DNA of 64,000 nucleotides from positions 1 through 64,000 of the forward strand of contig JACJNW010000044.1 in the NCBI GenBank assembly GCA_014695195.1, in the 5' to 3' direction. The translations under genes were made by a program, and so were the position numbers. The notes beneath the pieces were generated by a model. The model saw only the letters and a list, made by a program, of their open reading frames with translations. It was not told the DNA's origin and made no database searches. Shown piece by piece: positions 11,756 through 31,446 of this stretch (positions within the stretch are counted from its first letter, which is position 1; every line of letters begins with the position of its first letter). This DNA is from Cyanobacteria bacterium FACHB-DQ100. GTDB lineage: Bacteria; Cyanobacteriota; Cyanobacteriia; Leptolyngbyales; Leptolyngbyaceae.

Positions 11756-12817
11756 TTAGAAACCACTCCAACCCATCAGCAAAGATTGAATGGAGACGGG
11801 GGAAGGATACAAACGCTGTGCTTCCGCTTGTAAAAGGCTTTCATTGATTGCATCGAAATTGGTGAACGCATACATCTTTTGAATGCTCGTTGAACACAAC
11901 CGACTATAAATCAATTCAAACAAGGCTTGTAGGGCTTGTGCTTTAGCAACAGGCGTTGGGTAAATCTTGTGATAAGCAGACTGAATCTCCTCGAAGATTG
12001 CTGGATGCTGTTGAGCGATGAAATGAGTTGCAATGTTCTGTAAGTAAAAATTAGCGTGAAGTTTATCTCCAAAAAATCGAAGTTGCTCGGTTCGACCAAA
12101 GCGCACGCTAAACGACATTCCCGTCTCGCAGTATTCTAAGTAATGCCAAATGCCAGCAGGCATAAACACGGTTTCACCCGGATAAAGTAGAAAATCATAG
12201 CCGTTTGCATAGTGAACAAAAGCAGTTTTGTCGGATTCAGAGAAGTTTTCTAGAAAAACATTACTAAAATTGCCGATGGGACTAAGCTTCTGCGCTTGGT
12301 TCGCAGGAATCAGAATCACCCGCTTTGTGCCAAATACTTGATGAAGCAACACCTGACGATAATCCCCGTCAAAGTGGAGATGAGCATAGTTACCCGCATT
12401 CCCAAGAAACAGCAGCGATGCAACATCAGAGAAAGTCTCATCTCCATTGATTCGAGCATAGTCCGGGAAATCGAAGCGTTGTCGGATCTCAGGCGGAGTC
12501 AGTCCTTCTGTCGCCATTAAGCGAGTGTCTGGATTAGCTTCAATATAGTCAAGATACTGTTGAAATGACCAAAGCTTCTTTTCACGCTGATCCAGCAAAA
12601 TCGAGGTTTTGAGAACTGACGAAGTAAACTCTTCCTGGACTTCTAACGGCATTGAGCTTAGGTAGATTTTGGCACTCTCGATCGTTCTCAATTCATTCAT
12701 TGCATCCGATGCAAACAAATCGGTGAGAACGACAGGTTTCTGTTTGAGAAGATAGTCTTGTTCAAACACTTGCACTGAAAGCGCGGAAATTCGTTCAATG
12801 TTGTCTAGCGTTTTCAT
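11756..12817 (-). CDS. JmjC/cupin-like Fe(II)/2OG oxygenase
   Basis: A cupin-like (JmjC-related, FIH-type) oxygenase, probably a peptide hydroxylase. The 353-residue protein shows the iron facial triad: His148-x-Asp150 in AHLHFDGD and the distal His225 in MPAGIWHYLEY. A Lys in FGTKRVILIP is at the position that often binds 2-oxoglutarate in this family. The start overlaps the stop of the preceding GNAT gene (ATGA), so it is translationally coupled and is the last gene of the operon. By context it should modify a residue of the lanthipeptide core. Which residue is not evident, since the core has no Asn, Asp, Pro or His. Val, Ile, Leu, Lys and aromatic side chains remain candidates. Confidence 0.82.
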   Translation of the reverse strand: MKTLDNIERISALSVQVFEQDYLLKQKPVVLTDLFASDAMNELRTIESAKIYLSSMPLEVQEEFTSSVLKTSILLDQREKKLWSFQQYLDYIEANPDTRLMATEGLTPPEIRQRFDFPDYARINGDETFSDVASLLFLGNAGNYAHLHFDGDYRQVLLHQVFGTKRVILIPANQAQKLSPIGNFSNVFLENFSESDKTAFVHYANGYDFLLYPGETVFMPAGIWHYLEYCETGMSFSVRFGRTEQLRFFGDKLHANFYLQNIATHFIAQQHPAIFEEIQSAYHKIYPTPVAKAQALQALFELIYSRLCSTSIQKMYAFTNFDAINESLLQAEAQRLYPSPVSIQSLLMGWSGF

Positions 12818-13701
12818 CCTGACTGCTCCGAACTGAGTGATTTTGTAGCTCCTTTTGTTAGTGCGATCGAGGTCATATAAGGAGCCATCCGATTTTGCAC
12901 AAAATTAAACATGGCAGTATGACGAAGCGGAACTGTCCAAATTCCGTTGCGAATTCCTGCTTGCGCTTGTCGTCGAATCGCTTCAACATAAAGCGGAATG
13001 ATTCGCCCTCGACGCTGAAAATCCGCCCGAATAAAGCTACAGGTGTAGCGGATTGTATCTGGGTTTAAGCGATGCGTGATGACCCAGCCCACGATAGTTC
13101 CTTGATAACGGACTCCTAAGCTATTGAGCGATTCGATCGGTTCTTGTTCTAAAGGGGCAAGATCGGAGGGAATCCAAGTGGCGGTGGTTTGTTGGTGTTG
13201 TAAGTACGATCGCTCTTCATGCGTGAGTTGAGCCCAGGGAAAAATTGTGAAGGTTGCAGGCAGATGAGATTGAGCCATCCAGGGCGCTTGAGCAATTCGA
13301 TCAATCGTCGAGCGTCCCACAAGCATTCGCGTTTGCGGGGCTGTCCAATGAAATTTCTCTAACAATCGTTCCAGAATCGAAGCCGAAGGTTTCCCAGTCA
13401 TGTAGACAAGCTGAACTTCAGCACAACCTTGATCGGCTAGAGACTGTTCCAGCGCTCCGAGCAGTGCGGTTCCAATGCCTTGATTTCGGGCAGATTGCGT
13501 CACAAAAATAGATCGCACTTCTGCTCGCTTTAAGTCTGCTGAAAGTTCTGCCAGAATTAGCCCAACCGGATAACCATCTTTCGCCGCTCCGACAGCAATG
13601 CAGGAGGTTTCCAGGCATTGTAGGTGCGATCGGAATGCAGGAAAGGTAAAGGCTTGATAAGGAAGGGCTGTGATCGAATTCAGGCGCTCTAGAGTCAGCA
13701 T
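12814..13701 (-). CDS. Tandem-GNAT N-acyltransferase, copy 1
   Basis: An acyl-CoA (or acyl-ACP) dependent N-acyltransferase of the GNAT fold, 295 residues from the ATG at 13701. A longer frame starts at 13737 but would overlap the upstream gene, and MLTLERLNSI aligns with the start of the paralogue at 14480-15361. The N-terminal GNAT unit has the acyl-CoA loop QSARNQGIGTALL (near 83-95). The C-terminal half is a degenerate second unit with RRGRIIPLYVEAIRRQA. Known NHLP-leader pathways (selidamides) use GNATs to attach fatty acids to Lys or Orn side chains. Here the core contains three Lys. Peptide acylation is thus a reasonable but unproved role. Acetylation for self-immunity is the alternative. 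Confidence 0.8.
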   Translation of the reverse strand: MLTLERLNSITALPYQAFTFPAFRSHLQCLETSCIAVGAAKDGYPVGLILAELSADLKRAEVRSIFVTQSARNQGIGTALLGALEQSLADQGCAEVQLVYMTGKPSASILERLLEKFHWTAPQTRMLVGRSTIDRIAQAPWMAQSHLPATFTIFPWAQLTHEERSYLQHQQTTATWIPSDLAPLEQEPIESLNSLGVRYQGTIVGWVITHRLNPDTIRYTCSFIRADFQRRGRIIPLYVEAIRRQAQAGIRNGIWTVPLRHTAMFNFVQNRMAPYMTSIALTKGATKSLSSEQSG

Positions 13702-13706
13702 ATCAA

Positions 13707-14483
13707 TCACCAATACAGTTGCCAAATGCCGCGACACTTTAAGCCGTGTCCTTGCAGCGTGATTCTGACATCATTCGGTTGAGCCTGCCAAAAGGGTGCA
13801 ACTTGGTGATAGTAATATCCAGAATGCACAGCCGCATCACCAATCTGATACCGATAGAGCTGTTTATCTCGTGTGTCTAAAAGGTTGCGAACTTTCTCTT
13901 GAGACAGACCCAGCGTTTCGCTGCGATGCAAATCCCACACATACATTCCAGCACCGTTTTGGGGAAGTGCGATCGCTAGGGTAAACGAAATCGGATGATT
14001 GAAGTCAATGTCACTATAGGACGCACCCCAGTTAAACAATAAATGCGGCGTATCACAGTGAATCGGCGTAGCAATCACATTAGGATTATATCGTTGCTGA
14101 AACCATTCGTCATGCAGCAATGCTTGCGGTTGCTCAAATCCAGGAAACGATTCAAAAATGTGAAACCCTGGAAGGGCAAAGCTCTCCGGGTAGCAAACTG
14201 GGGCTTGTAGCACCTGAGAAAGTGTCTGGGCGAGTTGGTCGTAGAGCCAGCCTAAATGATTCTGTAAAACAGGATTCGCTTCAGCCGCAATGCGACCATA
14301 AGGACACTCTGGATTGTTGGCAATGTCGTAATAGTTGGATGCCCCAAGTGTATAAAACGGTGCGACCGGATGGCGTTGAATCCAATGTGATCGGAGTGCT
14401 ACGATCGTTTGCCTCACCCGCGCACAGTCTGATGCTGTCAGAATGTTGATGGATTGAACAACTTCGGAATTCAGTGTGATCAT
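13707..14483 (-). CDS. Fe/2OG-type oxygenase of the paired family, copy 1
   Basis: A 258-residue protein without a confident family name but with the layout of a 2-oxoglutarate/Fe(II) dioxygenase. His142-x-Asp144 (TPIHCDTPH), a distal His220 (AAVHSGYYYHQVAP) and Arg240 in DVRITLQGHG fit the HxD...H...R pattern. It is a clear paralogue of the protein at 15935-16651: both share PFYTLGA near residue 45, SFALPG(F/L)HI, NPISFTL or HPISFTL, and a nearly identical tail RITLQGHG..RG.WQLYW. The start overlaps the stop of the upstream GNAT by 4 bp. Expected job: hydroxylation or another oxidation of the lanthipeptide. Having two copies suggests two sites or reactions. Confidence 0.65.
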   Translation of the reverse strand: MITLNSEVVQSINILTASDCARVRQTIVALRSHWIQRHPVAPFYTLGASNYYDIANNPECPYGRIAAEANPVLQNHLGWLYDQLAQTLSQVLQAPVCYPESFALPGFHIFESFPGFEQPQALLHDEWFQQRYNPNVIATPIHCDTPHLLFNWGASYSDIDFNHPISFTLAIALPQNGAGMYVWDLHRSETLGLSQEKVRNLLDTRDKQLYRYQIGDAAVHSGYYYHQVAPFWQAQPNDVRITLQGHGLKCRGIWQLYW

Positions 14484-15361
14484 ATAGCAACGAGTGCGGG
14501 GAAGGTTTTTGTCGATCGACGATATTCATCCATTGAAGTGATATAGTCCGCCATGCGATGTCTTACAAACTGCACCATTCCTGGGTGGATATAAGGCACA
14601 ACCCAAGACGCATTTGGAATATCAGGTCGAGTGCAATGGCGGTTGATGGCTTCGGCATAGAGGGGAATGATTCGCCCGCGTTGCCGCAAATCGGGACGAA
14701 TGTAGCTGCAGCTATAACAAAGTGTATCGAGGCAAAGCCGCTGAGTGATCATCCAACCGACGACTTCGCCTTGATAGCGTAATCCTAAACTATTGAGGGG
14801 TTCCATTGAGGCTTCATACTCAAACGGACTCAAGCTAGAGGGATACCAATCCGCGTTTAACAATGCGGCTCGGTCTGCTAAAGTTAGTTCCATCCAAGGA
14901 AAAATCTCAAACGATCGTGGTAAAACCGCTCGTTGTACCCAAGATGCTTGCTGCATCGCTTGAGGAGTACAACGACAAATCAGCATTCGAGGTTCAGGAT
15001 CAGCCCAACCACATTTTTCTAAAACTCGTTCTAGTGCTTTAGCCGTTTGCTTACCCGCTGCATAAACTAAGTAAGTTTCCTGACAACCGAGGCTGATTAA
15101 GGCTTGCTCGATGCGATCGATTAATCGAGTGGCAATACCTTGATTGCGATACTCAGCTTTGACAAACAGAGAAAGAATTTTTGCGGACTGTGCTTGAATC
15201 TCTGCAAGAATCAGTCCAGCAGGTTGATTATTCTCGCTGGCACCGATCGCGATCATCTGACGACCTAAGCCGACGCTTTGCAGCATTGCCTGGAACTTCG
15301 GGAAAGTCATCGTCCGAAACGGAGGTGCAGAAAACAAGTTTAATGATTCAAAGGTAATCAT
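14480..15361 (-). CDS. Tandem-GNAT N-acyltransferase, copy 2
   Basis: A 293-residue paralogue of the protein at 12814-13701; the two align along their length (FTFP/MTFP near the start, SLGLRYQG or SLGVRYQG, QRGRIIPLY). The acyl-CoA binding loop is AEYRNQGIATRLID (near 88-101). Seven bases separate it from the AspH-like gene, and its end overlaps the next oxygenase gene in an ATGA junction. Each GNAT is followed or preceded by one of the paired oxygenases, so an ancestral GNAT-oxygenase module appears to have been duplicated. Probable substrate: an amine of the peptide (Lys, or the N-terminus after leader removal). Donor and chain length are unknown. Confidence 0.8.
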   Translation of the reverse strand: MITFESLNLFSAPPFRTMTFPKFQAMLQSVGLGRQMIAIGASENNQPAGLILAEIQAQSAKILSLFVKAEYRNQGIATRLIDRIEQALISLGCQETYLVYAAGKQTAKALERVLEKCGWADPEPRMLICRCTPQAMQQASWVQRAVLPRSFEIFPWMELTLADRAALLNADWYPSSLSPFEYEASMEPLNSLGLRYQGEVVGWMITQRLCLDTLCYSCSYIRPDLRQRGRIIPLYAEAINRHCTRPDIPNASWVVPYIHPGMVQFVRHRMADYITSMDEYRRSTKTFPALVAI

Positions 15362-15369
15362 GGTTAAAC

Positions 15370-15915
15370 CTAGAGAGATGGAATCATTTGAGCAACACTA
15401 TTCGGCACGATTAGATCAATCGGTTGCACTATCTCAGGCTTCTTAAAATCAAGCAGCAAAACAATCCGATTTGTGTTGCCGCGATGCCAGACTTCATGTT
15501 CCATCGTGTCATCAAAAACCAGACATTTCCCTTCTTGCCACTGTCGAGTTTCAGTTCCAACGCGCATCGAACAGCCTTCAGGCACCACTAATCCCAGATG
15601 ACAGCGCAGAACCGCACTGGTATAGCCTGTATGCGGCAGAATGTGGGTTCCTGGCTGTAAACAAGAAAATCCTGCGGTGGTCAGGTTGGGAACTTGCTCA
15701 AGGATCGCTGTGGTTTGAGGGCAACGCTGGCAATTCTCATCGAGTCTGCGCCCGAACGCATAAAAGCCGAAGACATCCCAAGCCCCTTGATACAAAAATC
15801 GTTCTGCCCACGGCATGAACTGAGCCGATTGGAGTTGCTCAAGCTCCTGACGAATGATCAACCAATTCGCTTCGAGCAAAGCAGTAAATGGAAAGTGAGC
15901 GGGGTCAAAAAACAT
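15370..15915 (-). CDS. Aspartyl/asparaginyl beta-hydroxylase-like oxygenase
   Basis: A member of the AspH/LpxO-like Fe(II)/2OG oxygenases (Asp_Arg_Hydrox fold). From the ATG at 15915 (MFFDPAHFPFT) it is 181 residues. A longer frame from 16002 exists, but the internal ATG has the ribosome site AAAGGT about 9 bases upstream and avoids a long overlap. Family landmarks are HTGYTSAVLRCHLGL, the Asp-rich FDDTMEHEVWHRG with its iron-binding His, and Arg in NRIVLLLDF. It lies inside the peptide operon between an oxygenase and a GNAT. Relatives hydroxylate Asp/Asn in proteins or modify Asp in RiPPs. As the visible core has neither residue, the target here is open. Confidence 0.82.
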   Translation of the reverse strand: MFFDPAHFPFTALLEANWLIIRQELEQLQSAQFMPWAERFLYQGAWDVFGFYAFGRRLDENCQRCPQTTAILEQVPNLTTAGFSCLQPGTHILPHTGYTSAVLRCHLGLVVPEGCSMRVGTETRQWQEGKCLVFDDTMEHEVWHRGNTNRIVLLLDFKKPEIVQPIDLIVPNSVAQMIPSL

Positions 15916-15934
15916 AACAGTGTACCTTTGCGAA

Positions 15935-16651
15935 TCACCAATACAGTTGCCAGCATCCACGACTGAATAATCCGTGTCCTTGTAACGTAATTCGATCGTC
16001 ATCTGGTTTTAAGTTAGAACCCGGTGCAGCCTGATGTAATGTCCATCCAGAATGCACAACCAATGATCCAATCTCATACGGGTAAAAGCGCTGCTCGCGA
16101 GATTGAATGAGTTGCTGCAATGCTGCTGAATCGGGCATTTCTGATTGCTCAACATTCCAAACATTCAACCCTCCACCTGACTGCGGGAGTGAGATGGGTA
16201 AGGTGAAGGAGATTGGATTGGTAAAATCCGTATCCTCTGCATCCCACTGCAATTTTTGATACTGCAAATCAATGTGAATTGAAGCGATCGGAAACTCAAA
16301 AAGAACACACGATAGATAAATATGAAGCCCAGGCAGCGCAAACGAGTGACTATAACTGATTGGCGCTCCTAGATGTTGAGCAAGAACAGTTCCTAAGCGT
16401 TGATACAACCCAGCAAATCGACTAGAGAGTAATGGATTCGATCGCTGTGCAGATTGCAGATATTGCTCATTTTCAGCAGCATCGAGATAGCTTGCCGCTC
16501 CCAGCGTGTAAAACGGTAGAAACGGATTGCGCCGTGTCCAATCCTGCTTCAATTCATAAATCACTGAGCGAATCGTTTGACATTCGGATTCACTCAACAT
16601 CGGAATGCTGTGAAACGTTTGAAAGGCATCTATTTGTGGCGAGGGTTTCAT
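15935..16651 (-). CDS. Fe/2OG-type oxygenase of the paired family, copy 2
   Basis: A 238-residue paralogue of the protein at 13707-14483. Candidate iron ligands are His126-x-Asp128 (SIHIDLQ) and His200 (VVHSGWTLHQ). Arg220 in DDRITLQGHG is the likely 2-oxoglutarate anchor. The N-terminal half shares the PFYTLGAASY and SFALPGLHIY stretches with its sister. The start at MKPSP fits the junction TGATGAAA, where the LanM stop and this ATG overlap by one base, so the two are translationally coupled. Its position directly after LanM suggests it acts on the same peptide. The family is assigned from the residue pattern only; a database profile search would decide. Confidence 0.65.
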   Translation of the reverse strand: MKPSPQIDAFQTFHSIPMLSESECQTIRSVIYELKQDWTRRNPFLPFYTLGAASYLDAAENEQYLQSAQRSNPLLSSRFAGLYQRLGTVLAQHLGAPISYSHSFALPGLHIYLSCVLFEFPIASIHIDLQYQKLQWDAEDTDFTNPISFTLPISLPQSGGGLNVWNVEQSEMPDSAALQQLIQSREQRFYPYEIGSLVVHSGWTLHQAAPGSNLKPDDDRITLQGHGLFSRGCWQLYW

Positions 16652-19600
16652 CATGCCAACATCCAAGCTTGAGAAGTTGATTTTGGATCAAGTAACCAGA
16701 GCAACATCAACCCGATACCAGCAACGCCATCGAGTAAGCCAGGAATGATTCTGCGTTCTGAAAACTCGTGCAATCGCCAGTAACCGCGCCGCTCATAAAA
16801 TGTCGTAGTTGCAACTGCGGCTTGGATTGCAGTTTCCCACAATTCCGGGCGATTTAATTGCTGTGCTGCTTTTGCCAGAAACACAATTCGCCCCGCTTCA
16901 CCACAGCATAAATGATGTTGTGCTTTGCCAAGATGCTTCTGGGTTGCTGCGATCGCTCGTTCAATATCAATCCAAATCTCCGCTTCATCTTCCAGCATTC
17001 CCAAGCTTCCCAGCCGAGCTAAACCAATTCCCGGAGCGCCTGCACACCAGCCTGTCATAAACTGAGTGTGTCCAATCGGCTGACGAAAATCCGCCCAGTC
17101 TTGCTGCTCGATCGCAAAGTTCTGCTGCTCGAATGCGATTCCGCGCTGAGCCGACTCCTTAAAGCGTGAATCACCTGTTATTGCATAAAGCTGCAACAAC
17201 GCATAGCTAATTCCTGCCGCACCATGTCCCATTCCCATCAACGGACGCTCAAACTCAGGAATAAACCATCCGGCTGCTGCTCCCGAAGCTTGGGACTTGA
17301 GAATCGGAGTGGCAAGATCAATGGCTCGATCGACTAATCTTTGATCTGGATGCAGTCGGTGTAGATGCAGCAAGGTGAGCAATCCTCCAGCCGCGCCACA
17401 CAGAATATCTGGATTAGTTTCTCGCAGTAGCTTCTCTGGGGTTAGCTTGAGAGCGATCGACAGAGCTTGATCAATCAAGCTGCGATCGTTGAGGCATCGC
17501 CCGGTTTCCGTCAAAGCATAGATGCCTAACCCAATCCCGTGATATCCCGAAACGGGAAGGTCATTCCACAATCCCGCTTGGCTGAATTGCTCTAGCATTG
17601 AGAAAGTAAATTTCATTCCTCCTCGCGCTAAACGGGCGTATTGTTCGTTTCCGGTGTGTCGAGCGAGATTGGCAAACAATAAGCTTGTTCCTGCTGCTCC
17701 CGCTGCGTGCCACGGATAATGATGCACTGGAGCGACCATTGCAGAGTTGTTAGTTCGTCCTAAACTAAGCCAACTACTACCCTCCATATGATTTAGGGCT
17801 AGATTTGTCAGAACTTCTGCGATCGCGCTTAGGTGCGTCTCTAACTTCAGCATCGGATCAGTGGCTTCTGTTTCGGCTACCGCAGCATTTAATGGAACCC
17901 AACCATTGAGTTGTAACCATTCAGCATTCAATGATTGATTCAACCAAGCGGGTTTTGAGGTTTGATTCGGGGCTGCTTCTAGATTCAGTGCCATGGCTAA
18001 TGAAACCCGCAAAAGTTCCGCTTGCCAAATTAAGTCTTCTTCAGAAGCATCTTCTAGGCGCTGCTGCATCTGTTGAAAGCTTGGCTGCTGAACAAAGGCA
18101 GGATAGAGAGTGCCCTCACTAGAATAAATGTCGATCGAAGCAGGCGATCCATAAAAACTAGGAATGTCGAGCCAGCGTAAGCACTGCCGTTCTTCATCGA
18201 CGATCGCTTGAGTCGGAGCTAGACTGGCACAGGTCGGACTCAGTTCACTCAAAGACTCTAATGCCACAAAAAAGGCTGCACCACTGGTAAGCTGATCGGG
18301 TGCTACACTCCAGGCTAGTAATCCAGAATAATCGCTCGTGTCGCGCACTAAAACACGAGTTTGCACCGAGTAGAATGCCTGCAATGGGCTTTCTTCTGAA
18401 AGTAAATACTTGCGATGCTGAAGTAACGTTCGATAAACCGCAGCAAACCCTTGTACAACGTCAGGTAAAAAGCGATCGACCGAAATTCGCTGATCATTCA
18501 ATCGCGGTAAGCTCTGATCAAAATGCAGAGGTTGAGCAGTGCGTTTGAGTGTTAGTCGATCGGTATTGATGTTGCTCCAAGCTGAAACCGCAGTATGCCA
18601 GGGGCGATCTCCACTGCCATTGATCCCACTGGCAGCAAAAAGAATCTGATCAAAATCTCCAGACCGCCAATAGGTTGACATTCCGGTTGATAGCATCGAA
18701 AACAAACTCGAAGGTAAAAGATACTTCGGCAGATGTTTCCATTCACGTGCGGGAACATGAACTCCACTCGTCAGTAGCGCTTCTAAGTCGATCGGAACTG
18801 GATATTCACCACATGGAATAAAGTTTTCATAGTGAAAATCCACGCCACACAGGAAGTAAGCCAGCGCAACATGCCCGCCTTGACGTTGATAGTATCGAGC
18901 GATCGCTGCTTCAGAATCACAAGATTGAGTCGCAACAAATTCTGTCCAGCCATATTCAACACGATCAAGAATTTTGAGTGTCTTAAATGTCGGTGTGCTT
19001 CCGGTTTGATTTAACCAATCGATCAAGTGATAGAAGGCATGATCGATCGCTAAGCTCCGAGGCTTATAAATTAGTTTAGTTTGATCGCTCACTTGAACAA
19101 GACAGACTGTTCGCCCTCCTTGATGGGAATCAGACAATCCGGGAAACAATGCTGCGATCGACGAAGTACGATCACAGCCAAAGACTTGAGCCAGATCGAC
19201 TATATCCTGCTTAAATCGTGTTAGTAATTCGATGATTGAACTGGCAACTTGTTGAGTTGCAACGGCTAAAAGCCGCCCTAATACTGGATATTGCAGCAAT
19301 AGCTCTGTGAGTCCTGCTGAATTTCCTAAAACTTGCTCAGCAAAATATTGATACCGTAGCTCTGGAGTGTCACCCAGCAGTTTGCCTTTGAAGCTGTGTT
19401 GCTTGACTTCATAAGCAATAGTGCGTGCTGATAGCTCCGACAATCGCCAAACTAGATATCGTCCGATCGTTTCGATCGCATTCCAACTTAATAAGTCTGG
19501 TTGCTGTGACTGAATTTCCCGCAGTGCCCATGTGACAAAAGGATGTAGAAACTGTGGAAACAATGGCAGTGCGTCAAGATTGATATCATACTGCTGCAAT

Positions 19601-19965: not shown

Positions 19966-19971
19966 GGGCAG

Positions 19972-21180: not shown

Positions 21181-21222
21181 AAAAATAGCTCCCCAATTTC
21201 AACCACTGATTTCAGGGAGCTA
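21181..21222 (-). terminator. Attenuator hairpin after the precursor gene
   Basis: On the minus strand an 8-bp stem TAGCTCCC / GGGAGCTA (21222-21215 with 21193-21186) with a 21-base loop is followed at once by TTTTT. It lies between the precursor and epimerase genes inside one operon. It probably acts as a partial terminator, giving much precursor mRNA and less maturase mRNA. Confidence 0.75.
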
Positions 21223-22840: not shown

Positions 22841-22844
22841 TTTC

Positions 22845-25736
22845 CTACACCACTTGCCGAGCAATTAACTGAGAAAACAAGCCATTCTGCTTTGCTAACT
22901 GATCAAAATTTCCGACCTGCACGACTCTCCCTGCCTGCAAGACATAAATGCGATCGGCATTACGAATCGTACTGAGGCGATGAGCAATCACAATCCGCGT
23001 TACATTCAGTCGATCGAGGCTTTCACTGACGATCGCTTGAGTCCGGTTGTCTAGCGCACTGGTCGCTTCATCAAAAAATAAAATCCGAGGTTTCAGCACC
23101 AGCGCTCGTGCAATAATCAATCGCTGCCGTTGTCCACCAGAAAGATTGCTGCCACCTTCGCTGATGACGGTGTGCATTCCCATCGGCATTGCCTGAATAT
23201 CTTCGGCAAATCCCGCCATTTGTGCGGCTTCCCAGGCTTCGTCCATTGTGACTTGAGCGCCAGACGCAATGTTGTCAAAGATTGAGGCAGAGTTAATTCG
23301 GGCATTTTGTAAAACAACACCAATTTGACGACGCACTGCATAGATATCCAACCCTGCCAAATCTTGTCCATCATAGAAAATGCTGCCTAGCTCTGGAGTA
23401 TCAAACCCCAGTAAAAGTCGCAGAATGGTTGACTTACCACTTCCAGAAGGGCCGATCAAGGCAATAAATTCACCGGGATTTGCTTCTAAACTGACATCAT
23501 CAAGCGTCAGTGCTCCGTCCATTCGATAGCGAAACACTACATGATCAATCTTAATACCTCCAGCGAGTCTACCTGGATCAGCTTTACTTTGATCGACTTC
23601 TGGAAGTTCTTCGAGAATCGGCTTGGCTCGTTTCCAAAGCGGAATCACTGACAGAATACTGAGAGTGGTATTGCTCAGACTGGTAGCACCACTAATAAAG
23701 GTTCCAAATGCAGAACTAAATGCTAGAAATGTACCTGTTGACATTGGCTCTGCATCTAATGCAGTCTCAGGTTTTGTCAGCATTCCTACCACAAACCAGT
23801 ACAGCGCGATCGAGGTTAAGGTCGGCATGATTGTATTGAACAATATCACCACATCTTCGATCAATTGAGTGCTTAGCTCTAGCTTAATCTGCTGACTATA
23901 TCGACGACTCCAGTAAGCGAACGCTCGTTCTTCAGCTCCGGCAACCCGCAGCTTCGAGATGCCATTAATCAATTGCACAACCAAACCAAAAATGGTTCCT
24001 TGTAGCTCTAGCAGCGGACGCTGTTTACGAAGCAGCAGCACGCCTGAAACAGTGGTAACAATGATCGAGATCAGCGCGACGACGATGGCTACGATCGACA
24101 GCTTAAAGCTATAGAACATCAGCAATCCCAGATTCAGCAGCGAGAAAAATCCGCTAAACAGGGTTCTTAAAGTCGTACTGCTCAACTGTTGCCGAATGCT
24201 ACTGATTGCGGTGACGCGAGACTGCAAATCTCCAACCGAGTACCGCCGAAAAAATCCCATGCGGAGATTAAGCAATCGATCCCACACCGCAGCTTGCGTG
24301 GTTGCATCTGAAGCGGTTTCCGATCGCAAACTTGCAAACGTTTGAGTAAGCTGAAACATCGTCGAACCAAATGCAGTCGCTGCGAGTCCTAATGCAAGCT
24401 GAAGCACTAAGCTACGATCGCTGTTCGGAATTGCTGAATCCATCAAAATTCCAGTCGCTTGGGGTACAACCATGCCCAATACCGACCCCACAATACCCAT
24501 CACGATTACAGTGGCAAAGTCTTTGAAGCGTCCTCTGCCTGCAAATCGGATTAAATCGCCCGCATTCAGCAATGTTGCGGGTAGGGGGCGGTAAAACATC
24601 ACGCTTTCCGGGGCTAAAGTTGCAGCCACTTCAGGAGTCACAAGCGATCGGGATTGGTCTGTGGGATCAAACAAGTCGTAACGCGCTCCCCGAATCGGTA
24701 ACAAAGTGACCGGAGATTGATCCGCCTTGCGATAGGCGAGCAGTGCGCCCGCATCTTGCCGCCACCAATCACCTCGCAACAACACCCGACGGCTGCGAAT
24801 TCGAGACGATCGCACGATCGCTTCTAAGGGATCTTTCAGCCGCGATAAATTTTCTGATTTTGCCGGGGGACGGATCTCGATGTTGAGCGATCGACCAATT
24901 GCACCCATCGCAATCAGTAAGGCATCGCCTTCAAAAAAAGACCGCTTCTGTTTCGGGATCAGAATCGAAGCTAACTCACCAAAGGCAGATTCGGTCACTT
25001 GCTGATTCAGCCGTTCTTTTTCCGCAAAACGCTGAAGTTCTGATTGGGCTTCTTGTTGTTCTAGCCAAGCAATCGCATCGAAGACAACCGCGTGGAACAC
25101 GGCTAGGCTGGATAAAATTTGATTCCAGTTCAGATCTTGAGTCGCGCTGATCGTCAGAGTCGATCGCTGTTCTGCTTTAATCCAAGCGTGATGACTAAGG
25201 GGAAACCTACCTGTTTCTACATCTAGCGACTTTATCCCCATCCAGGAGAAGCATCCGGTCTGCACTTGCAACCAATCGATCGTAGAGGATTGATAAGTCT
25301 GACCTGCTTCTAATTCCAATGATGAAAGAGATTGTTGAGTTGCTGTGTTTTTCGTGTAAGTAATTGTATTTTCAGATTGAATTGCAGCACTGAGATGATG
25401 AATCCAGGCTTCAAGCAGTGAGACCAGATCAATCTGAGAATCGCCCTTCTCGGCTGAAATCGCGTACTGTACCAATTCAGTTGGTTCGATCGGCACCACT
25501 AAAAGCTGTCGATCGCTCTCCTCCAATTCAGAATTAAACAATGCCGCGCCCGCTTCCAAGCTAAACAAATAGCGTCGAGCCGCAGGGGTTCCCTGTTCGA
25601 CCGACACTGCAAACACTGCCACAGAGCCAGACCGAATCCACCAAAACGTTTCGTCTGAATCAGTGAGAAATAAAGGCTGATTCGCAGTGATGTTTTTAAC
25701 GCGTCCAGTCGCTTTGGCAAAAAATGAGTTCAGCAT
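22845..25736 (-). CDS. NHLP-type bacteriocin ABC exporter, permease/ATPase without peptidase
   Basis: One of the two ABC proteins typical of NHLP-leader bacteriocin systems. The 963-residue protein has an N-terminal cNMP-binding-like/linker region (1 to about 390), a six-helix exporter transmembrane domain (about 400-690) and a nucleotide-binding domain. The latter has Walker A LIGPSGSGKST, signature NLSGGQRQRL, Walker B RILFFDEATSALD and the switch His in IVIAHRLSTI. There is no C39 peptidase. It probably forms a heterodimer with, or works after, the peptidase-bearing partner at 25777. It ends 4 bases before the regulator start. The long N-terminal extension agrees with the family and may sense a signal or the substrate. 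Confidence 0.92.
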   Translation of the reverse strand: MLNSFFAKATGRVKNITANQPLFLTDSDETFWWIRSGSVAVFAVSVEQGTPAARRYLFSLEAGAALFNSELEESDRQLLVVPIEPTELVQYAISAEKGDSQIDLVSLLEAWIHHLSAAIQSENTITYTKNTATQQSLSSLELEAGQTYQSSTIDWLQVQTGCFSWMGIKSLDVETGRFPLSHHAWIKAEQRSTLTISATQDLNWNQILSSLAVFHAVVFDAIAWLEQQEAQSELQRFAEKERLNQQVTESAFGELASILIPKQKRSFFEGDALLIAMGAIGRSLNIEIRPPAKSENLSRLKDPLEAIVRSSRIRSRRVLLRGDWWRQDAGALLAYRKADQSPVTLLPIRGARYDLFDPTDQSRSLVTPEVAATLAPESVMFYRPLPATLLNAGDLIRFAGRGRFKDFATVIVMGIVGSVLGMVVPQATGILMDSAIPNSDRSLVLQLALGLAATAFGSTMFQLTQTFASLRSETASDATTQAAVWDRLLNLRMGFFRRYSVGDLQSRVTAISSIRQQLSSTTLRTLFSGFFSLLNLGLLMFYSFKLSIVAIVVALISIIVTTVSGVLLLRKQRPLLELQGTIFGLVVQLINGISKLRVAGAEERAFAYWSRRYSQQIKLELSTQLIEDVVILFNTIMPTLTSIALYWFVVGMLTKPETALDAEPMSTGTFLAFSSAFGTFISGATSLSNTTLSILSVIPLWKRAKPILEELPEVDQSKADPGRLAGGIKIDHVVFRYRMDGALTLDDVSLEANPGEFIALIGPSGSGKSTILRLLLGFDTPELGSIFYDGQDLAGLDIYAVRRQIGVVLQNARINSASIFDNIASGAQVTMDEAWEAAQMAGFAEDIQAMPMGMHTVISEGGSNLSGGQRQRLIIARALVLKPRILFFDEATSALDNRTQAIVSESLDRLNVTRIVIAHRLSTIRNADRIYVLQAGRVVQVGNFDQLAKQNGLFSQLIARQVV

Positions 25737-25776: not shown

Positions 25777-27981
25777 CTACTCTCCCTGTAATGCTTCGCC
25801 CTCAGTCTTAATCAACCGAGCATAAACCCCATCTCGATCGCGCAATTGCTCATGAGTTCCACGCTGTACCACTCGCCCTCGCTCTAGAACAATGATTTCA
25901 TCACAATCGCGAATCGTACTCAATCGATGCGCCACAATCACGCAGGTACAACCCCGACGACGCAAATTTTGATCAATGATTTTCTCGGTTTCAGTATCTA
26001 ATGCACTCGTCGCTTCATCCATCACCAAAACACTGGGATTGTAAACGAGCGATCGAGCAAGTTCCAATCGCTGTCGCTGTCCCCCGCTTAAATTCACGGC
26101 TCCTTCTAACAACAAAGCATCATATCCACCTGGAATCGATAGCACCGTGTCATGAATCGCAGCATCCTGGCAAGCATGAATTAGATAGCTATCCGGTACA
26201 GTCGCATCCCAAAGCGTCAAATTATCTCGCACAGTTCCCGCAAACAAGAAAATCTCCTGCTCGACCATGGCAACCGAGTGAGTTAACACACTCCGAGGGA
26301 TCTGCGATCGTGGCTTTCCATCAAACAACACTTCACCCGACCAAGGTTCGTACAGTCCCGTGATCAATTTCGCGATCGTAGATTTGCCAGAACCGCTACC
26401 GCCAACTAAGGCAACTCGTTGCCCTGGTTTGACCGAGAGATTGAAATTTTCAATCAAAGCATCCGACGCTCGACTATAGCCATAAGTGATGTTTTTTAGC
26501 TCTACATGCCCTTGTAGCTTTGGTGTTTGAAAGACTACAGGCTGTTGTCTGGGTTCAACCTGGGGATCAGTTTCATTCTGAAGCACATCATCAAGCCGAT
26601 TCAGGCTTCCTTCCAATTCCTGCAAGCTGCTTCCAAAGCTCACTAAACTATTGACAGGTCCTTGAAAGCTTCCCATCAATGATTGGAACGCAATCAGCAT
26701 TCCAATACTCAAATTGCCATCCATCACTCGAAAGCCACCGACGACTAACAGCAACATCGTAGTCAATGATGAAAGCAATGAAGGTAAAGCTTCCAAAACT
26801 TGTCCGACCGTATCTAATTCTTGTTGAGCGTTGATGGCTTTGGCATAGTAACCCGCCCAGCGCGAGAAAAACTCTGATTCTAACCCCGATGCTTTCAAAG
26901 TCTCCATGCTTTGCAGTCCCGCGATCGATGCTCCTGCAACTTTGCCATGTTCTTGTACCAGCCGCATATTTGTATCAATCCGCCGCCGCGAAATCCACTG
27001 CAACGCAGATACATTGACGATCGCAAAAAACACACCAATGCTAGTTAAAACCAAGTCATACTGAATCATGACCCCCAGGTAAAAAATTAGCATCACGACT
27101 TCAATTACGGTACTCGCTAACCTTCCAGACAAAACATCTGAAACATTGTCGTTTAATCTCACTCGGTTACTAATTTCGCCTGCAAATCGTTGTGCATAGA
27201 AACTAACTGGTAATCTCAGAATGTGCCAGAGAAATTCACTCGACAGTTTCACTGATAGCTTAACTCTCAGCTTTCTCAGATAGCGCAGTTGCAGTAACGT
27301 GAGTAAAGCTTGGAGTAAGCCCGTAATCAGCATTCCTAAGATTAATGGTCGTAACCATTCATACCGACCTTCAATCAGCACATTATCGACAAAAACCTGG
27401 CTGAATACAGGAATTGCTAGTCGTGGTAACACCAAAAAGAAACCAGCGATCACACAATACAAAAGTGCACCCGTCGAACTCGACAAGCGATCGACCAGTG
27501 CTAGCATTAAACTTGGCTTTCGTCCGCCGCGCTTAAATTCATCAGTCGGTCGAATCACGAGCGCAACTCCCGTGAATGACTCATCAAACTCTTGCAGCGA
27601 AACGGTTCTAGGTCCTGTTGCCGGATCGTTGAGATAAACTCGCTGTTCCTGAATGCCCTCAACGACGAGAAAGTGGTTGAAATTCCAGAACACAATGTAT
27701 GGAGGCGTTAACTCACGCACGGCTTCAATACTTTTCTTGAACCCTTTCGCGCTCATTCCATAGTTTCGCGCTGCCTTCAGCACATTTGAAGCCTTACTGC
27801 CATCGCGGGAAACGCTGCATTCTCGACGCAGTTCAGCAAGCGGCACAATCCGCCCGTAGTACGCCAAAATAATTCCTAAAGCGGCGGCTCCACATTCTAC
27901 TGCTTCCATTTGTAGCACTGTGGGCGTTTTCACACGGCTTGAGGATTGGGAAGATTGGGGGAGCTTGAGCTTAATAAACAC
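25777..27981 (-). CDS. NHLP-type bacteriocin exporter with C39 peptidase domain
   Basis: A peptidase-containing ABC transporter that cuts the leader after Gly-Gly and exports the mature peptide. The 734-residue protein has an N-terminal C39 cysteine protease (1-150) with Cys30 (AVECGAAALG), His103 (WNFNHFLVVEG) and Asp119 (YLNDPATGPR). A six-helix membrane domain (about 170-450) follows, then the ATPase (about 495-730) with LVGGSGSGKST, NLSGGQRQRLELARSL and VLVMDEATSALDTE. Its start overlaps the HlyD-like gene by 11 bp. The LEGVAGG site of the precursor at 21300 is the expected cleavage site. Confidence 0.95.
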   Translation of the reverse strand: MFIKLKLPQSSQSSSRVKTPTVLQMEAVECGAAALGIILAYYGRIVPLAELRRECSVSRDGSKASNVLKAARNYGMSAKGFKKSIEAVRELTPPYIVFWNFNHFLVVEGIQEQRVYLNDPATGPRTVSLQEFDESFTGVALVIRPTDEFKRGGRKPSLMLALVDRLSSSTGALLYCVIAGFFLVLPRLAIPVFSQVFVDNVLIEGRYEWLRPLILGMLITGLLQALLTLLQLRYLRKLRVKLSVKLSSEFLWHILRLPVSFYAQRFAGEISNRVRLNDNVSDVLSGRLASTVIEVVMLIFYLGVMIQYDLVLTSIGVFFAIVNVSALQWISRRRIDTNMRLVQEHGKVAGASIAGLQSMETLKASGLESEFFSRWAGYYAKAINAQQELDTVGQVLEALPSLLSSLTTMLLLVVGGFRVMDGNLSIGMLIAFQSLMGSFQGPVNSLVSFGSSLQELEGSLNRLDDVLQNETDPQVEPRQQPVVFQTPKLQGHVELKNITYGYSRASDALIENFNLSVKPGQRVALVGGSGSGKSTIAKLITGLYEPWSGEVLFDGKPRSQIPRSVLTHSVAMVEQEIFLFAGTVRDNLTLWDATVPDSYLIHACQDAAIHDTVLSIPGGYDALLLEGAVNLSGGQRQRLELARSLVYNPSVLVMDEATSALDTETEKIIDQNLRRRGCTCVIVAHRLSTIRDCDEIIVLERGRVVQRGTHEQLRDRDGVYARLIKTEGEALQGE

Positions 27982-29410
27982 CAGTGTACGACCTCAAAAT
28001 CGGGAGCAAAAATGTAATCGGCGCACGTTCTTCCACCACCACACGGGCGATCGTTGTTGTTCCTGGCGTGATTTTTAGGTCTGGTCCTTTCGATGAAGAC
28101 CATTCATAGCCGCTAAAATTTCCAGCACCGGGCTGTAGTTCTGCTGTGATTTCAAGCATCGGTCCTTGAGCAGACAATCCTTTTACCAGTTCTTCATTTC
28201 CCAGTAGCGCCACTGCCCCAGCTTGGGTCACTGGAAACGGCGATACACTTTTAACCTTGGCAATAATGCCGCCAAACCGCTCACGCTTTACCGTTTGCGG
28301 TGTGATTTGGATTTGCATTCCGGGTTTGACTTTTTTACCGTCTCCAATGCTGAAGTAAGTAATGCCTTCGAGTGAGCCAGACTCATTCTCGGCAGCAATC
28401 ACGCCCACCCGCAGTCCCATTGAGACAAGCTGACCATCGACTGCTGAAACTTCCAGCACTCGACCACTGTAAGGACTAACAATCTGACTTTGGTTCTTCA
28501 GTTGCAGAGTGAGTTGCGCGATCGCTCGTTGCAGTTCGTTGATCTGATTTTTACGACTTAAGTTCGCTTCAAAGGTCTGTTGTGCGACTGAAGTTTGTCT
28601 TGAGTCAAGCTCACGAAGCTGCGATCGCAACTCCGCAATCAAGCTGAGGTTCTCTAGATACGATCGCTGTGCCTCAGCTTCACGAGTATCGAGTTCTTTA
28701 AGCTGTGCTTGAATGTTCGCAATCTGAGCATTTTGATCGAGATACTGTTGCTCGGCTTGCAGAACCAGATCTTCGGTGACATATTGATCTTTGTATAGTT
28801 GTCGTCGATTGTCTAATCGTTCTTTGAGTACAGGTTTAAGCGCTTGAGCATCCCTAAGACGCTGCTGCAAATTCTGTCGTTGTACCTCCAGCGAAGTCAG
28901 TCCTTTATCTTTCAGCACTGGAGTTAGTTCTTCTGCATTCGCAATGCGCTGAGTTAGGTTGCGCCGTTGCTGCTCGATCGAAGTGGTTTCACTCGCAATT
29001 CGCTGCTGTTGCAACTGATTTGCGTCTTCACCCTGAGCTAAGAGTTCGGTGAGTTTGGCTTGTTGTTGCTGAAGCTGTTTTTTTAGTTCGGGTTGGTCGA
29101 TCGTGGCAATCACATCTCCTTTTTTCACCACATCTCCAACTTTGATCCTAAGATTTTGCAGTTGCCCAGCGCTCGGAGATTGTAGCGAGGTCACTCGACG
29201 AGGATAGATTAGCACTCCTTGTCCTGCAACGGTCATCGGAATTCGCCCAAAAATGCTCCAGCCTAGCCCAATGGTTAACAATCCGCCTAATGCTGCAAGC
29301 GGTATCCAGGTTTTCGGGCGAACGACTTGCATCAATTGATCCAATCGTTCCGGCGAAGACAGCCGCTCTAGTGATTCCTTACGAAAAACATTTCGATTGG
29401 GATTAAACAT
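27971..29410 (-). CDS. HlyD-family NHLP bacteriocin secretion protein
   Basis: The periplasmic adaptor linking the ABC exporters to an outer-membrane channel. A single N-terminal transmembrane helix (about 35-55) is followed by a biotinyl-lipoyl-like half-motif (GQLQNLRIKVGDVVKKGDVI). A long Gln/Leu-rich coiled coil with several heptad blocks (about 105-300), the second lipoyl half (VSPYSGRVLEVSAVDGQLVS) and a beta-barrel domain complete its 479 residues. This is the membrane-fusion architecture with an extra-long hairpin. It is the first gene of the peptide operon, with the divergent TolC-like gene 360 bp away as its natural partner. Confidence 0.92.
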   Translation of the reverse strand: MFNPNRNVFRKESLERLSSPERLDQLMQVVRPKTWIPLAALGGLLTIGLGWSIFGRIPMTVAGQGVLIYPRRVTSLQSPSAGQLQNLRIKVGDVVKKGDVIATIDQPELKKQLQQQQAKLTELLAQGEDANQLQQQRIASETTSIEQQRRNLTQRIANAEELTPVLKDKGLTSLEVQRQNLQQRLRDAQALKPVLKERLDNRRQLYKDQYVTEDLVLQAEQQYLDQNAQIANIQAQLKELDTREAEAQRSYLENLSLIAELRSQLRELDSRQTSVAQQTFEANLSRKNQINELQRAIAQLTLQLKNQSQIVSPYSGRVLEVSAVDGQLVSMGLRVGVIAAENESGSLEGITYFSIGDGKKVKPGMQIQITPQTVKRERFGGIIAKVKSVSPFPVTQAGAVALLGNEELVKGLSAQGPMLEITAELQPGAGNFSGYEWSSSKGPDLKITPGTTTIARVVVEERAPITFLLPILRSYTGVY

Positions 29411-29772
29411 ACAAAGAGCTTCAATTCACTAATGACTTAACTTCCTCTTGCGGATCAATTCAACAAGTTCTGATCGTATCGATAAGCCGATGTTCTCTAA
29501 TAAACTGCGAATGACACCTAAGATTAGATGGCAATCCTCTTTAGGGATAAACAGAGAATTCACGGATTTTTATTGAGATAATTAGTGAAACTACTTAGGT
29601 ATTACGTAGATTTTGCTAAAACTTTACTGATTAAATTGAGTATCTAAATTCAGAAATCAGAGTAAACTGAACTCTGCAACTTTGCAAACGCTGTTAGCAA
29701 GCGAACTGATTTGCTTCTGAGTCCTAATTCTAGGAGTACAGAGTATTTACTTGTGCTGGAAATAAGAAACAG
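29411..29772. promoter_or_regulatory. Divergent promoter region of peptide operon and TolC gene
   Basis: A 362-bp AT-rich gap between divergent starts, which must hold the operon promoter (minus) and the TolC-gene promoter (plus). I see no unambiguous -35/-10 pair and no clear inverted repeat for the AraC regulator. It holds no reading frame of note. Confidence 0.55.
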
Positions 29773-31446
29773 ATGAAATGTTTAAATTTCGGTATTATTG
29801 CAGGACTGAATGCTGCGATCGCGCTGCAATTTGGCATCTACCCAGTTCAGGCTCAATCCCCGCCTCCAGTTCCATCAGCACCGCTTCCCACATTACAACC
29901 CAGTGTTCAACCTAAAACTTCGGTGGTTGAAGCTCCCGCAACTCCGTCTGCCGCCGATCTAACGCCCAATCCAAATCGGCTTCAGCTTCCTACTGAGACC
30001 AATCAAGTTGAAGTACAAAAAACAGTTGCGATTACCCTGAAGCAAGCGATCGAAACCGCTCAGCGCAACAGTCTTACTTTGCAGGTTGCTCAGGCACAAC
30101 TGCGGCGATCGCAGGCAGCATTGCGCGAAGCAGAAGCCGCGCTCTATCCAACCTTCAGCTTTCAAGCCAGTCTCAGTCGTGATCTGTCTGCAAGCGGTGA
30201 TATTGCAGTCCAAGCAACGGAGCGTCAAACCCGTCAACAGATTACTCAAGGAGAAGCAGCGCTCCGTGGTCTACTTGCATCTCCGTCACCAACTGATCCA
30301 TTAAGTGCTTTCTTACAACGGAATAGCCTCTTGCAGACGCAAGCCCAACTTGCCCAAGGACAAGCTTCGCTCGACGCGCTCAAGAACTATGGCACCACCA
30401 GCTTCAATGGTTCTTTTCTACTTGAGTACGCACTCTACACGGGCGGACAAAGACCCGCATTAATTCAAGTGTTTGCAGAACAGGTTCGACAAAATCAATT
30501 GGAAGTAGAACGCATTCTGGAACAACTGCAACTAGATATCACCAATGCTTACTATGATGTGCAATCTGCCAACGAGCAAGTTCGGATTGAGACCGCAGCC
30601 GTTACCGAAGCAACACGCAGTTTGGACAACACAGAAGCGCTGTCGAAAAATGGATTAGCAACCCGCTTGGATGTTTTAAACACACAAGTTCAATTAGATA
30701 ATGCCTCACAGCAACTCGTCGTGGCACAAACACAGCAGCAGGTGAGCCGTAGACGGCTTTCTCGGTTGCTCAACAGTTCAGCAACGATTACTGTAACCGC
30801 CGCAGAGCCGGTCAAACTGGCTGAACCTTGGACACTATCATTAGAGGAAAGTATTGTTCAAGCTCTGAAAAAGCGGGTCGAATTGCAGCAGCAACTCGCA
30901 CAACGCAATATTAGTATCAATCAACGCAAGGCAGCAGAGGCAGCACTCCGTCCGCTAGTGGGGGTGTTCGCAAACTATAACGTATTGGCATTAGGCAATG
31001 ATGCGCCAGGGGAGGCAGTTAGCCGAGGCTGGGGAGATGGCTATAGCGTCGGAATGCGCGTCCAATGGAAGTTATACGATGGAGGTGCAGCCAGAGCTAG
31101 AGCAGCGCAAGAAACGGAAAACATTGCGATCGCAGAAACCCGATTCGCGGAAACTGGGCAGCAAATCCGGTTGGATGTGGAGCAAAGCTACTTTAACTTA
31201 CAGTCGAACCTGAAGAATGTTCAGACTGCGACTGCTTCCCTGAATCGAGCCAAAGAAGCGTTACGTGCAGCTAGGGTCCGGTTTGGAGCCGGGGTTGGAC
31301 TTCAAAATGATGTGCTAGATGCAGAAAGTCGATTGACCCAGGCAGAAGGCAATTTAGTTCAGGCGACTCTGGGATATAATCGAGCGCTAGCTGCACTGAA
31401 GCGAGCCGTGAGTTGGGTAGAAAGTAGCCCGAATGAGCAGGGCTAG
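29773..31446 (+). CDS. TolC-family outer-membrane efflux protein
   Basis: An outer-membrane channel of the TolC type (557 aa). A signal peptide ends at VQAQ (about residue 28). A Pro-rich linker (30-75) is followed by two repeats of the OEP fold (about 85-300 and 345-540), with long coiled coils and typical beta-strands such as FNGSFLLEYALYTGGQRPAL and GYSVGMRVQWKLYDGGAARA. The second repeat carries the conserved DGG turn. It is divergent from the HlyD/ABC operon and therefore very likely the exit channel for the lanthipeptide. The start context (ATGAAATG) lacks a strong ribosome site. Confidence 0.92.
   Translation: MKCLNFGIIAGLNAAIALQFGIYPVQAQSPPPVPSAPLPTLQPSVQPKTSVVEAPATPSAADLTPNPNRLQLPTETNQVEVQKTVAITLKQAIETAQRNSLTLQVAQAQLRRSQAALREAEAALYPTFSFQASLSRDLSASGDIAVQATERQTRQQITQGEAALRGLLASPSPTDPLSAFLQRNSLLQTQAQLAQGQASLDALKNYGTTSFNGSFLLEYALYTGGQRPALIQVFAEQVRQNQLEVERILEQLQLDITNAYYDVQSANEQVRIETAAVTEATRSLDNTEALSKNGLATRLDVLNTQVQLDNASQQLVVAQTQQQVSRRRLSRLLNSSATITVTAAEPVKLAEPWTLSLEESIVQALKKRVELQQQLAQRNISINQRKAAEAALRPLVGVFANYNVLALGNDAPGEAVSRGWGDGYSVGMRVQWKLYDGGAARARAAQETENIAIAETRFAETGQQIRLDVEQSYFNLQSNLKNVQTATASLNRAKEALRAARVRFGAGVGLQNDVLDAESRLTQAEGNLVQATLGYNRALAALKRAVSWVESSPNEQG

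Follow-up and report, generated by a model that had tools for sequence, protein, structure and literature searches.

A proteusin-type lanthipeptide operon in Cyanobacteria bacterium FACHB-DQ100 with a double-leader precursor, four predicted Fe/2OG oxygenases and two GNAT acyltransferases

What peptide is made by an operon that joins modifications of ribosomally synthesized and post-translationally modified peptides (RiPPs) – thioether rings, D-residues, side-chain lipids and several hydroxylations – otherwise met in separate clusters? The question is raised by Cyanobacteria bacterium FACHB-DQ100 (Leptolyngbyaceae), in which a conserved operon of this kind lies within the first 64,000 nucleotides of contig JACJNW010000044.1 (assembly GCA_014695195.1), the whole of this stretch being referred to here as the window. 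The operon encodes an NHLP-leader precursor, a LanM lanthionine synthetase, a PoyD-type radical SAM epimerase, four predicted iron/2-oxoglutarate (Fe/2OG) oxygenases and two GNAT acyltransferases. We lean slightly towards a product that would be a long, hydrophobic and hydroxylated lanthipeptide with D-residues, thioether rings near both ends, and terminal lysines that bear fatty acids.

Thirteen colinear minus-strand open reading frames (ORFs), running from HlyD at 29410 down to JmjC at 11756, form one tight series in the order HlyD, ABC transporter with C39 peptidase, second ABC transporter, response regulator/AraC, precursor, PoyD, LanM, OGA, AspH, GNAT1, OGB, GNAT2 and JmjC (Table 1), where OGA and OGB denote two homologous Fe/2OG oxygenases. 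Gaps between them range from -68 to +125 nt, the latter being the largest, and neighbours overlap at seven of the twelve junctions. All of the genes named in an earlier sequence-only reading of this DNA (the original prediction) are present at the positions given; that reading had described 13 colinear, partly overlapping genes; one of the thirteen is the AraC-type response regulator. The exporters, precursor, LanM, PoyD, AspH, JmjC and GNATs score above curated family cut-offs (NCBIfam or Pfam). Some details change: the GNATs described as tandem are both present, but OGB lies between them, and the TolC gene is present but divergent on the plus strand, hence outside the thirteen. Four oxygenases had been predicted, and AspH and JmjC are recognised by Pfam and OGB by its structural model, with OGA identified as a paralog of OGB.

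The precursor most likely starts at the ATG at 21962, which has AGGAG upstream (the ORF finder lists a TTG at 21968), and it contains two TIGR03793 NHLP leader domains head to tail, both above cut-off, a feature absent from the original prediction. The two leader halves align with a score of 86, against a mean of 22.8 and a maximum of 49 in 500 shuffles. An AlphaFold2 model built on a 40-row alignment has two folded domains, with a ten-residue mean predicted local distance difference test score (pLDDT) of 82-97 up to residue 130, then a short helix at residues 138-145 over the LxxxxL motif and a disordered core. In a single-leader proteusin, nuclear magnetic resonance identifies the LxxxxL helix as the site of enzyme contacts (PMC10858898, partial text), and the double leader raises the question of whether each domain recruits a different enzyme set. 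The GG at the cut site is invariant in all 40 rows of precursor alignment A1, which comprises 40 of 70 homologs, the weaker 30 (E 5.9e-8 and above) being left out. By its sequence features – an NHLP leader, and a GG site with an adjoining C39/NHLM exporter – the cluster is a proteusin cluster.

Double leaders occur elsewhere. Scanning a species-genome collection for the precursor family gave 140 relatives, of which 80 were kept, and single-segment matches spanning both leader halves were found at L005, L006 and L007 (39-52%) and at L008 (33%). Double leaders beyond this precursor family were read by eye at L138 and L007. Tandem arrays of double-leader NHLP precursors, matching both leader halves, adjoin NHLP exporters in three cyanobacterial genomes of one genus (L135, L136 and L137; 2.4-2.7 Mb), with no LanM or PoyD match inside the stretches taken. 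The other NHLP match in the FACHB-DQ100 genome, on contig 11, was considered as a second precursor and rejected; it is a nitrile hydratase alpha chain with a CTMCSC site.

The core has 2 Cys, 3 Lys, 7 Ser and 5 Thr, with zero Arg, Asp and Asn, and thus the Cys plus Ser/Thr of a class II lanthipeptide; its middle 55 residues have a grand average of hydropathy (GRAVY) of 1.35. Core length varies from 27 to 85 residues across the 40 rows of A1, and the lysines near the two ends are widely retained: Lys is present at positions 3-5 in 36 of 40 cores and among the last three residues in 32, with both in 32. Shuffled cores had both end lysines in a mean of 0.6 and a maximum of 5 of 40 (2000 shuffles), although the A1 rows are related by descent and these counts measure conservation, not probability. 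A Cys lies at positions 10-14 in 34 of 40 cores and a final Cys in 17, and because 15 of the 32 two-lysine cores hold the end lysine without a final Cys, the end lysines appear to outlast the end ring. There was no match to the peptide arginase family PF12640 in the FACHB-DQ100 genome, in a search in which none of 14 controls gave a match either; the positive control genome, G338, gave two matches. The ornithine route of landornamide and kamptornamide, in which such an arginase accompanies Arg in the core, is thus not represented. Both negatives are consistent with acylation of lysine, which would be the obvious residue to accept the acyl group.

Is the gene set conserved as a unit? The precursor-family scan led to two metagenome-assembled genomes (MAGs), one of the Bryobacterales (Acidobacteriota; L006, G388) and one of the Burkholderiales (L005, G389). 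In the Acidobacteriota MAG, one contig holds a double-leader precursor and LanM residues 2-672 (36% identity), up to the contig end. A second contig holds on one strand, in order, LanM residues 730-1089, OGA, two AspH genes, GNAT1, OGB, GNAT2, JmjC and PoyD, with identities to the window of 44% for the LanM C-terminal part, 49% for OGA, 52% and 67% for AspH, 42% for GNAT1, 47% for OGB, 41% for GNAT2, 38% for JmjC and 40% for PoyD. From LanM to JmjC the order is that of the window except for the second AspH, and PoyD is placed differently; neither contig showed a match to the exporters or the regulator. Co-occurrence in other genomes had been suggested as a check on the original prediction, and for the precursor and tailoring genes it supports the set, with one AspH more and PoyD moved. 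Because the tailoring genes recur in nearly the same order in another phylum, we predict that the set is one working pathway; such recurrence (36-67% identity) also outlines a family and its minimal gene set, and provides relatives for testing each step.

The Burkholderiales MAG carries ABC1, HlyD, an outer-membrane efflux protein (OEP, 87.5 bits), AspH (62%) and two double-leader precursors on one contig, and a RiPP radical SAM C-methyltransferase (TIGR03975, 479 bits), LanM, OGA, GNAT1 and JmjC on another. Over the three clusters AspH is the best-kept tailoring enzyme (52-67%) and JmjC among the least (35-38%). The second Burkholderiales precursor (L005:8031-8678) keeps the double leader and the first lysine and has a Pro-rich core without the end lysine; perhaps it encodes a diverging second product. 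In a tree of the OGA/OGB (OG) family (66 rows), the OGA proteins of the window, the Acidobacteriota and the Burkholderiales fall in one 24-row clade (100/99) and the OGB proteins of the window and the Acidobacteriota in another of 32 rows (100/98). In the GNAT tree (64 rows), GNAT1 of all three forms part of one 15-row clade (100/99), with GNAT2 outside. The OG and GNAT clades also hold many rows of unknown genomic context. The OG topology is consistent with a split between OGA and OGB that is older than the spread between phyla.

The set appears to be rare. At E 1e-20 the precursor profile matches 7 of 388 genomes of the class, including its own, and the full set is absent from one stretch taken around a match in each of the six others, further precursor matches lying on other contigs of three of these. 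In the 257 genomes of the Bryobacterales order, as in the 250 of the Burkholderiales order, the same profile finds just the starting MAG, and in 396 genomes of the phylum of the Bryobacterales MAG it finds two, that MAG and G1186. LanM matches occur in 3 of 8 genomes of the genus, own included, the two others at 32-34% identity. In a set of 5.8 billion proteins, at least six contigs, matched up by their identical lengths, apparently hold a precursor homolog together with an OG and/or GNAT homolog, a link that is indirect and covers the best 120 of 349 OG homologs. Among viral contigs, 87 pattern matches to A1 included no relative. An Alphaproteobacteria MAG (IP29b_bin.124; L008 and L009) has about 20 NHLP precursor-like matches, with two arrays near an NHLP exporter and one adjoining a GNAT; that precursor array may be lipidated.

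What chemistry do the oxygenases suggest? OGA and OGB are paralogs (105 of 252 aligned positions identical), neither with a Pfam match above cut-off. The AlphaFold2 model of OGB (pLDDT 95.1) has its best PDB fold in WelO5 (Foldseek, E 5.4e-11, 13% identity); the first 17 matches are WelO5, its variants or WelO15, headed by the deposited G166D variant of WelO5 (5iqu), and in a weak profile alignment (E 0.015) the His-x-Asp of OGB falls on that of the G166D variant. The ligand sets are H142-x-D144, H220/H226 and R240 in OGB, and H131-x-D133, H205/H211 and R225 in OGA. Alignment A2, composed of the two window proteins and 60 of 349 OG homologs, has His142 and Asp144 in 62 of 62 rows, and each distal His (one gap) and the 2OG arginine in 61; HxD, HSG and RITLQ are present in OGA and in the Acidobacteriota and Burkholderiales proteins as well. 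The mark of a halogenase is HxG or HxA, the Asp ligand being replaced by Gly or Ala. The WelO5 halogenases share their fold with OGB, but OGB has Asp where they have Gly or Ala, and halogenation by OGA or OGB is rejected on this ground. Because the Asp ligand is kept, hydroxylation is predicted and chlorination disfavoured, and both proteins are expected to be hydroxylase-like WelO5-fold enzymes.

The closest named relative of OGB is a 93% match in Leptolyngbya sp. DQ-M1 (among the best 120 of 349 homologs). At E 1e-20 the OG family has five matches in the 388 class genomes, including its own, and OGB has no match on plasmids. At L141:6637-8881 an OG-type oxygenase comes straight after a sulfotransferase and a GNAT from a different family (Acetyltransf_3, 32 bits), an OG-GNAT pair without RiPP genes. 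The OG relative in genome G219 adjoins a GNAT from a different family. At L142:8517-10367 and L143:9516-11189, OG-type oxygenases form the C-terminal end of 557-616 aa ORFs with no Pfam match, away from recognisable RiPP genes.

Metal ligands are intact in all four oxygenases. AspH matches the AspH PDB entry 5apa at 127 bits, and its best curated matches are OlsC (130.5 bits, cut-off 450) and LpxO (83.7 bits, cut-off 500), both below the level for assignment as a lipid acyl 2-hydroxylase. Because these are nonetheless its best curated matches and the window core lacks Asp and Asn, a role on the acyl chain is proposed; beta-hydroxylation of Asp or Asn in that core is unlikely for want of either residue. 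Unlike the window core, 23 of the 40 family cores have Asp or Asn, and in such relatives the reaction is conceivable.

GNAT1 and GNAT2 are identical at 138 of 292 aligned positions, and both resemble side-chain-acylating GNATs of the selidamide kind: identity with the GNAT of L140 is 46% for GNAT2 and 42% for GNAT1, L140 being a locus called kamptornamide-like from its gene content and core (PF12640 arginase, LanM, GNAT and a four-Arg core). By sequence, GNAT1 has one weak match in the PDB (2pdo, E 0.0073), and its closest named relative is at 98% in Leptolyngbya sp. FACHB-17; with that of OGB, this makes a Leptolyngbya the most likely host. GNAT1 matches 15 plasmid records, and of four opened (L105, L106, L107 and L108) only L107 is a RiPP cluster with PoyD; a PoyD-type epimerase is annotated at two more Mesorhizobium/Aminobacter plasmid records with GNAT1 matches. 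The L107 cluster (7934-19094, plasmid of Mesorhizobium sp. L-2-11) has a Nif11-type precursor, PoyD-type epimerase, GNAT, radical SAM C-methyltransferase and NHLP exporter, with no LanM annotated. In Gloeothece and Nostoc plasmids (L106:10795-12789 and L108:10720-12831) a GNAT1-related GNAT lies inside TIGR03032-annotated genes, followed by Ig-like or cadherin-like proteins. In the operon, a WelO5-like apparent hydroxylase is thus paired twice with a GNAT of lipidating type. One GNAT per lysine is unproven as a rule: the Burkholderiales MAG has one GNAT match and a two-lysine core.

The LanM is full-length in type, its TIGR03897 match extending over residues 139-1094 with a CAG...CCG zinc motif; CCG denotes a ProcM-like zinc site. 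Two more LanM homologs in the same genome (G000:C27:10522-13212 and G000:C8:13916-17080; 34-35% identity) suggest that it may have three lanthipeptide loci. The PoyD homolog has CxxxCxxC at residues 169-176 and scores as a PoyD-type epimerase.

How much of this is new? Published systems, each compared here from partial text of its source, already join parts of the set. Phaeornamide (pha) has an NHLP precursor, LanM, an Fe/2OG hydroxylase with a GNAT, and a peptidase-type exporter; arginine is converted to ornithine, PhaI hydroxylates and PhaN then acylates the same side chain, and LanM ring formation is largely independent (PMC9505594). Unlike the window it has one hydroxylase, one GNAT and the arginase PhaR, and no epimerase is named in that part of the source (PMC9505594). 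Landornamide A (osp) combines a proteusin precursor, LanM (OspM) and a radical SAM epimerase (OspD), which agrees with the original prediction that LanM and epimerase co-occur in landornamide-type clusters, but differs from the window in its arginase OspR, the partial text naming no GNAT or oxygenase (PMC10028609). Kamptornamide shares the NHLP precursor, LanM and GNAT, but carries its acyl group on ornithine (PMC12703449). Locus L140 differs from the window in its arginase, single leader domain and 20-aa core, and has no match to the window oxygenases or PoyD. Nostolysamides (npu) are class II lanthipeptides whose GNAT attaches C16 acyl groups, including a hydroxylated one, to lysine; unlike the window they have a single GNAT, and neither of the words epimerase and hydroxylase appears in the main text of the source (PMC13060382). 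That the full combination is undescribed, as originally claimed, stands in so far as no cluster with the full gene set was found in the open-licence literature (some table may already list one), but is weakened by phaeornamide and landornamide, which already join large parts of it (PMC9505594, PMC10028609). Because these two each join parts, the window cluster is best described as a merger and enlargement of known sets: it would merge proteusin, class II lanthipeptide and selidamide logic, with a double leader and an enlarged oxygenase set.

A pathway can be proposed in which all of the enzymes would act on one core to give a heavily modified peptide. PoyD would first epimerise core residues. 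Dehydration of Ser/Thr by LanM would follow, with Cys11 and Cys73 forming rings that enclose or flank Lys3 and Lys70/72. The side chains of lysines would next be hydroxylated by OGA and OGB, by analogy to PhaI acting on ornithine in phaeornamide, and GNAT1 and GNAT2 would then acylate Lys3 and Lys70/72 from acyl-coenzyme A or acyl-loaded acyl carrier protein. AspH would most likely 2-hydroxylate the acyl chain, and the JmjC protein would add one further hydroxyl. The C39 transporter would cut after VAGG, with export via HlyD and TolC, and the product would sit in membranes through a Gly-zipper segment with a lipidated ring at each end. Whether this extends to a new RiPP family over Cyanobacteria, Acidobacteriota and Burkholderiales is more doubtful, and we offer it tentatively: its members would be double-leader proteusins with a long Gly-zipper core and, at each end, a lanthionine ring with a hydroxylated, fatty-acylated lysine, made by two hydroxylase-acyltransferase modules and an acyl-chain hydroxylase, and the products would be membrane-spanning, doubly lipidated and D-residue-containing.

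Several observations weigh against this reading. An end lysine is lacking in 8 of 40 A1 rows (P0020, P0023, P0024, P0025, P0027, P0028, P0036 and P0039). The window PoyD matches positions 2-360 of the 446 in its model, leaving the last ~86 C-terminal positions unmatched, and longer copies occur in the Acidobacteriota MAG (522 aa), Microcystis (487 aa) and L139 (501 aa). The AspH scores do not separate lipid from protein substrates. OG relatives in the four other cyanobacterial genomes with a match at E 1e-20 (G133, G137, G153 and G219) have no LanM, PoyD, NHLP precursor or window-type GNAT within ~10 kb, and because such relatives sit away from recognisable RiPP genes, membership of the OG family alone is no proof of peptide hydroxylation. 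An in-frame stop interrupts the Acidobacteriota JmjC ORF ahead of its aligned end, and the 64-row tree gives no supported grouping of the window GNAT2 with the Acidobacteriota GNAT2. No PoyD, OGB or GNAT2 was seen on the two Burkholderiales contigs, and that whole, possibly incomplete, genome has one GNAT match, with both lysines held by one of its two cores.

The Burkholderiales cluster bears directly on one alternative, in which a single lysine is acylated by GNAT1 and OGA as the working selidamide pair, and OGB and GNAT2 have some other role, such as adding another kind of acyl group to that lysine, O-acylating a new hydroxyl, or acting on a shunt substrate. Its OGA, GNAT1, AspH, LanM and JmjC without OGB or GNAT2 are what this would predict, as is the second core with the first lysine only, but OGB and GNAT2 lie side by side both in the window and in the Acidobacteriota MAG, and 32 of 40 cores retain the C-terminal lysine, so that we regard this alternative as rather unlikely. 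The length and hydrophobicity of the core call to mind polytheonamide, which is made with methyltransferases and is not known to involve a LanM or to carry side-chain lipids. Polytheonamide (poy) shares with the window a proteusin precursor, a PoyD-type epimerase and a long hydrophobic core (PMC9505594, partial text), and the window product might be a channel of this kind first of all, its Gly/Ala/Val core helical through many D-residues and the lipids and rings merely end anchors. The C-methyltransferase of the Burkholderiales relative fits such a channel, but the window PoyD is C-terminally short and profile searches match no methyltransferase among the operon genes, and we think this explanation improbable on balance. 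An ordinary selidamide or landornamide-type cluster whose extra oxygenases are mostly idle or act on other cell substrates, to which the OG homologs outside recognisable RiPP loci might point, is decidedly unlikely, as ligands are kept in all four oxygenases, all four recur in the Acidobacteriota cluster at 38-67% identity, and AspH is the best conserved tailoring enzyme.

Table 1. Operon genes, precursor domains and associated features in the window.
Feature	Position	Strand	Basis
NHLP-type HlyD adaptor	27971..29410	-	TIGR03794 400.9 bits, cut-off 156.2
NHLM ABC transporter with C39 peptidase	25777..27981	-	TIGR03796 1174 bits, cut-off 853; Peptidase_C39
Second NHLM ABC transporter subunit	22845..25736	-	TIGR03797 1023 bits, cut-off 709
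Response-regulator/AraC-type transcription factor, within operon	22040..22864	-	Response_reg, HTH_18
Precursor peptide, 220 aa from likely ATG	21300..21962	-	TIGR03793; AGGAG upstream
NHLP leader domain 1	21738..21947	-	TIGR03793 53.8 bits, above cut-off; folded in model
NHLP leader domain 2 (LxxxxL helix, VAGG cut site)	21522..21746	-	TIGR03793 85 bits
Core, 73 aa	21303..21521	-	Gly 20, Ala 17; Cys11, Cys73; Lys3, Lys70, Lys72
Terminator-like hairpin, 11-bp outer stem then U run, 3' of precursor	21186..21222	-	Folding of gap, sequence
PoyD-type radical SAM epimerase	19972..21174	-	TIGR04517 410 bits, cut-off 325
LanM class II lanthionine synthetase	16651..19965	-	TIGR03897 707.6 bits, cut-off 304
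OGA, Fe/2OG oxygenase homolog of OGB family	15935..16666	-	WelO5 PF22814 21.9 bits, below cut-off 27; OGB paralog
AspH-family Fe/2OG oxygenase	15370..16002	-	Asp_Arg_Hydrox PF05118 187 bits
GNAT1, selidamide-type acyltransferase homolog	14480..15361	-	P-loop RNQGIA
OGB, WelO5-fold Fe/2OG oxygenase	13707..14483	-	AlphaFold2 and Foldseek; H142/D144 in 62/62 rows
GNAT2	12814..13737	-	P-loop RNQGIG; GNAT1 paralog
Cupin_8/JmjC-type oxygenase, JMJD5/FIH-like	11756..12817	-	Cupin_8 52 bits; HFD...WH
TolC-family outer-membrane channel, divergent	29773..31446	+	OEP PF02321 177 bits

The 125-nt gap 3' of the precursor folds at -38.1 kcal/mol over its whole length (z -3.24), and its hairpin likely attenuates read-through into the tailoring genes, which would give more precursor than enzyme. 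This hairpin is not in the output of the terminator scan, which has a loop limit of 8. The promoter and terminator scans gave fewer sites than in shuffles, and no promoter is claimed.

Elsewhere in the window, a gene for a two-partner secretion (TPS) protein ending in a CHAT domain lies beside one for a ShlB-type transporter (4375-8298 and 8618-10360), and photosystem II genes, as expected in a cyanobacterium, are found at 56417-57949 and 59531-60370. Just past TolC, a DDE transposase-associated ORF (31502-31810) is a possible trace of mobility beside the cluster.

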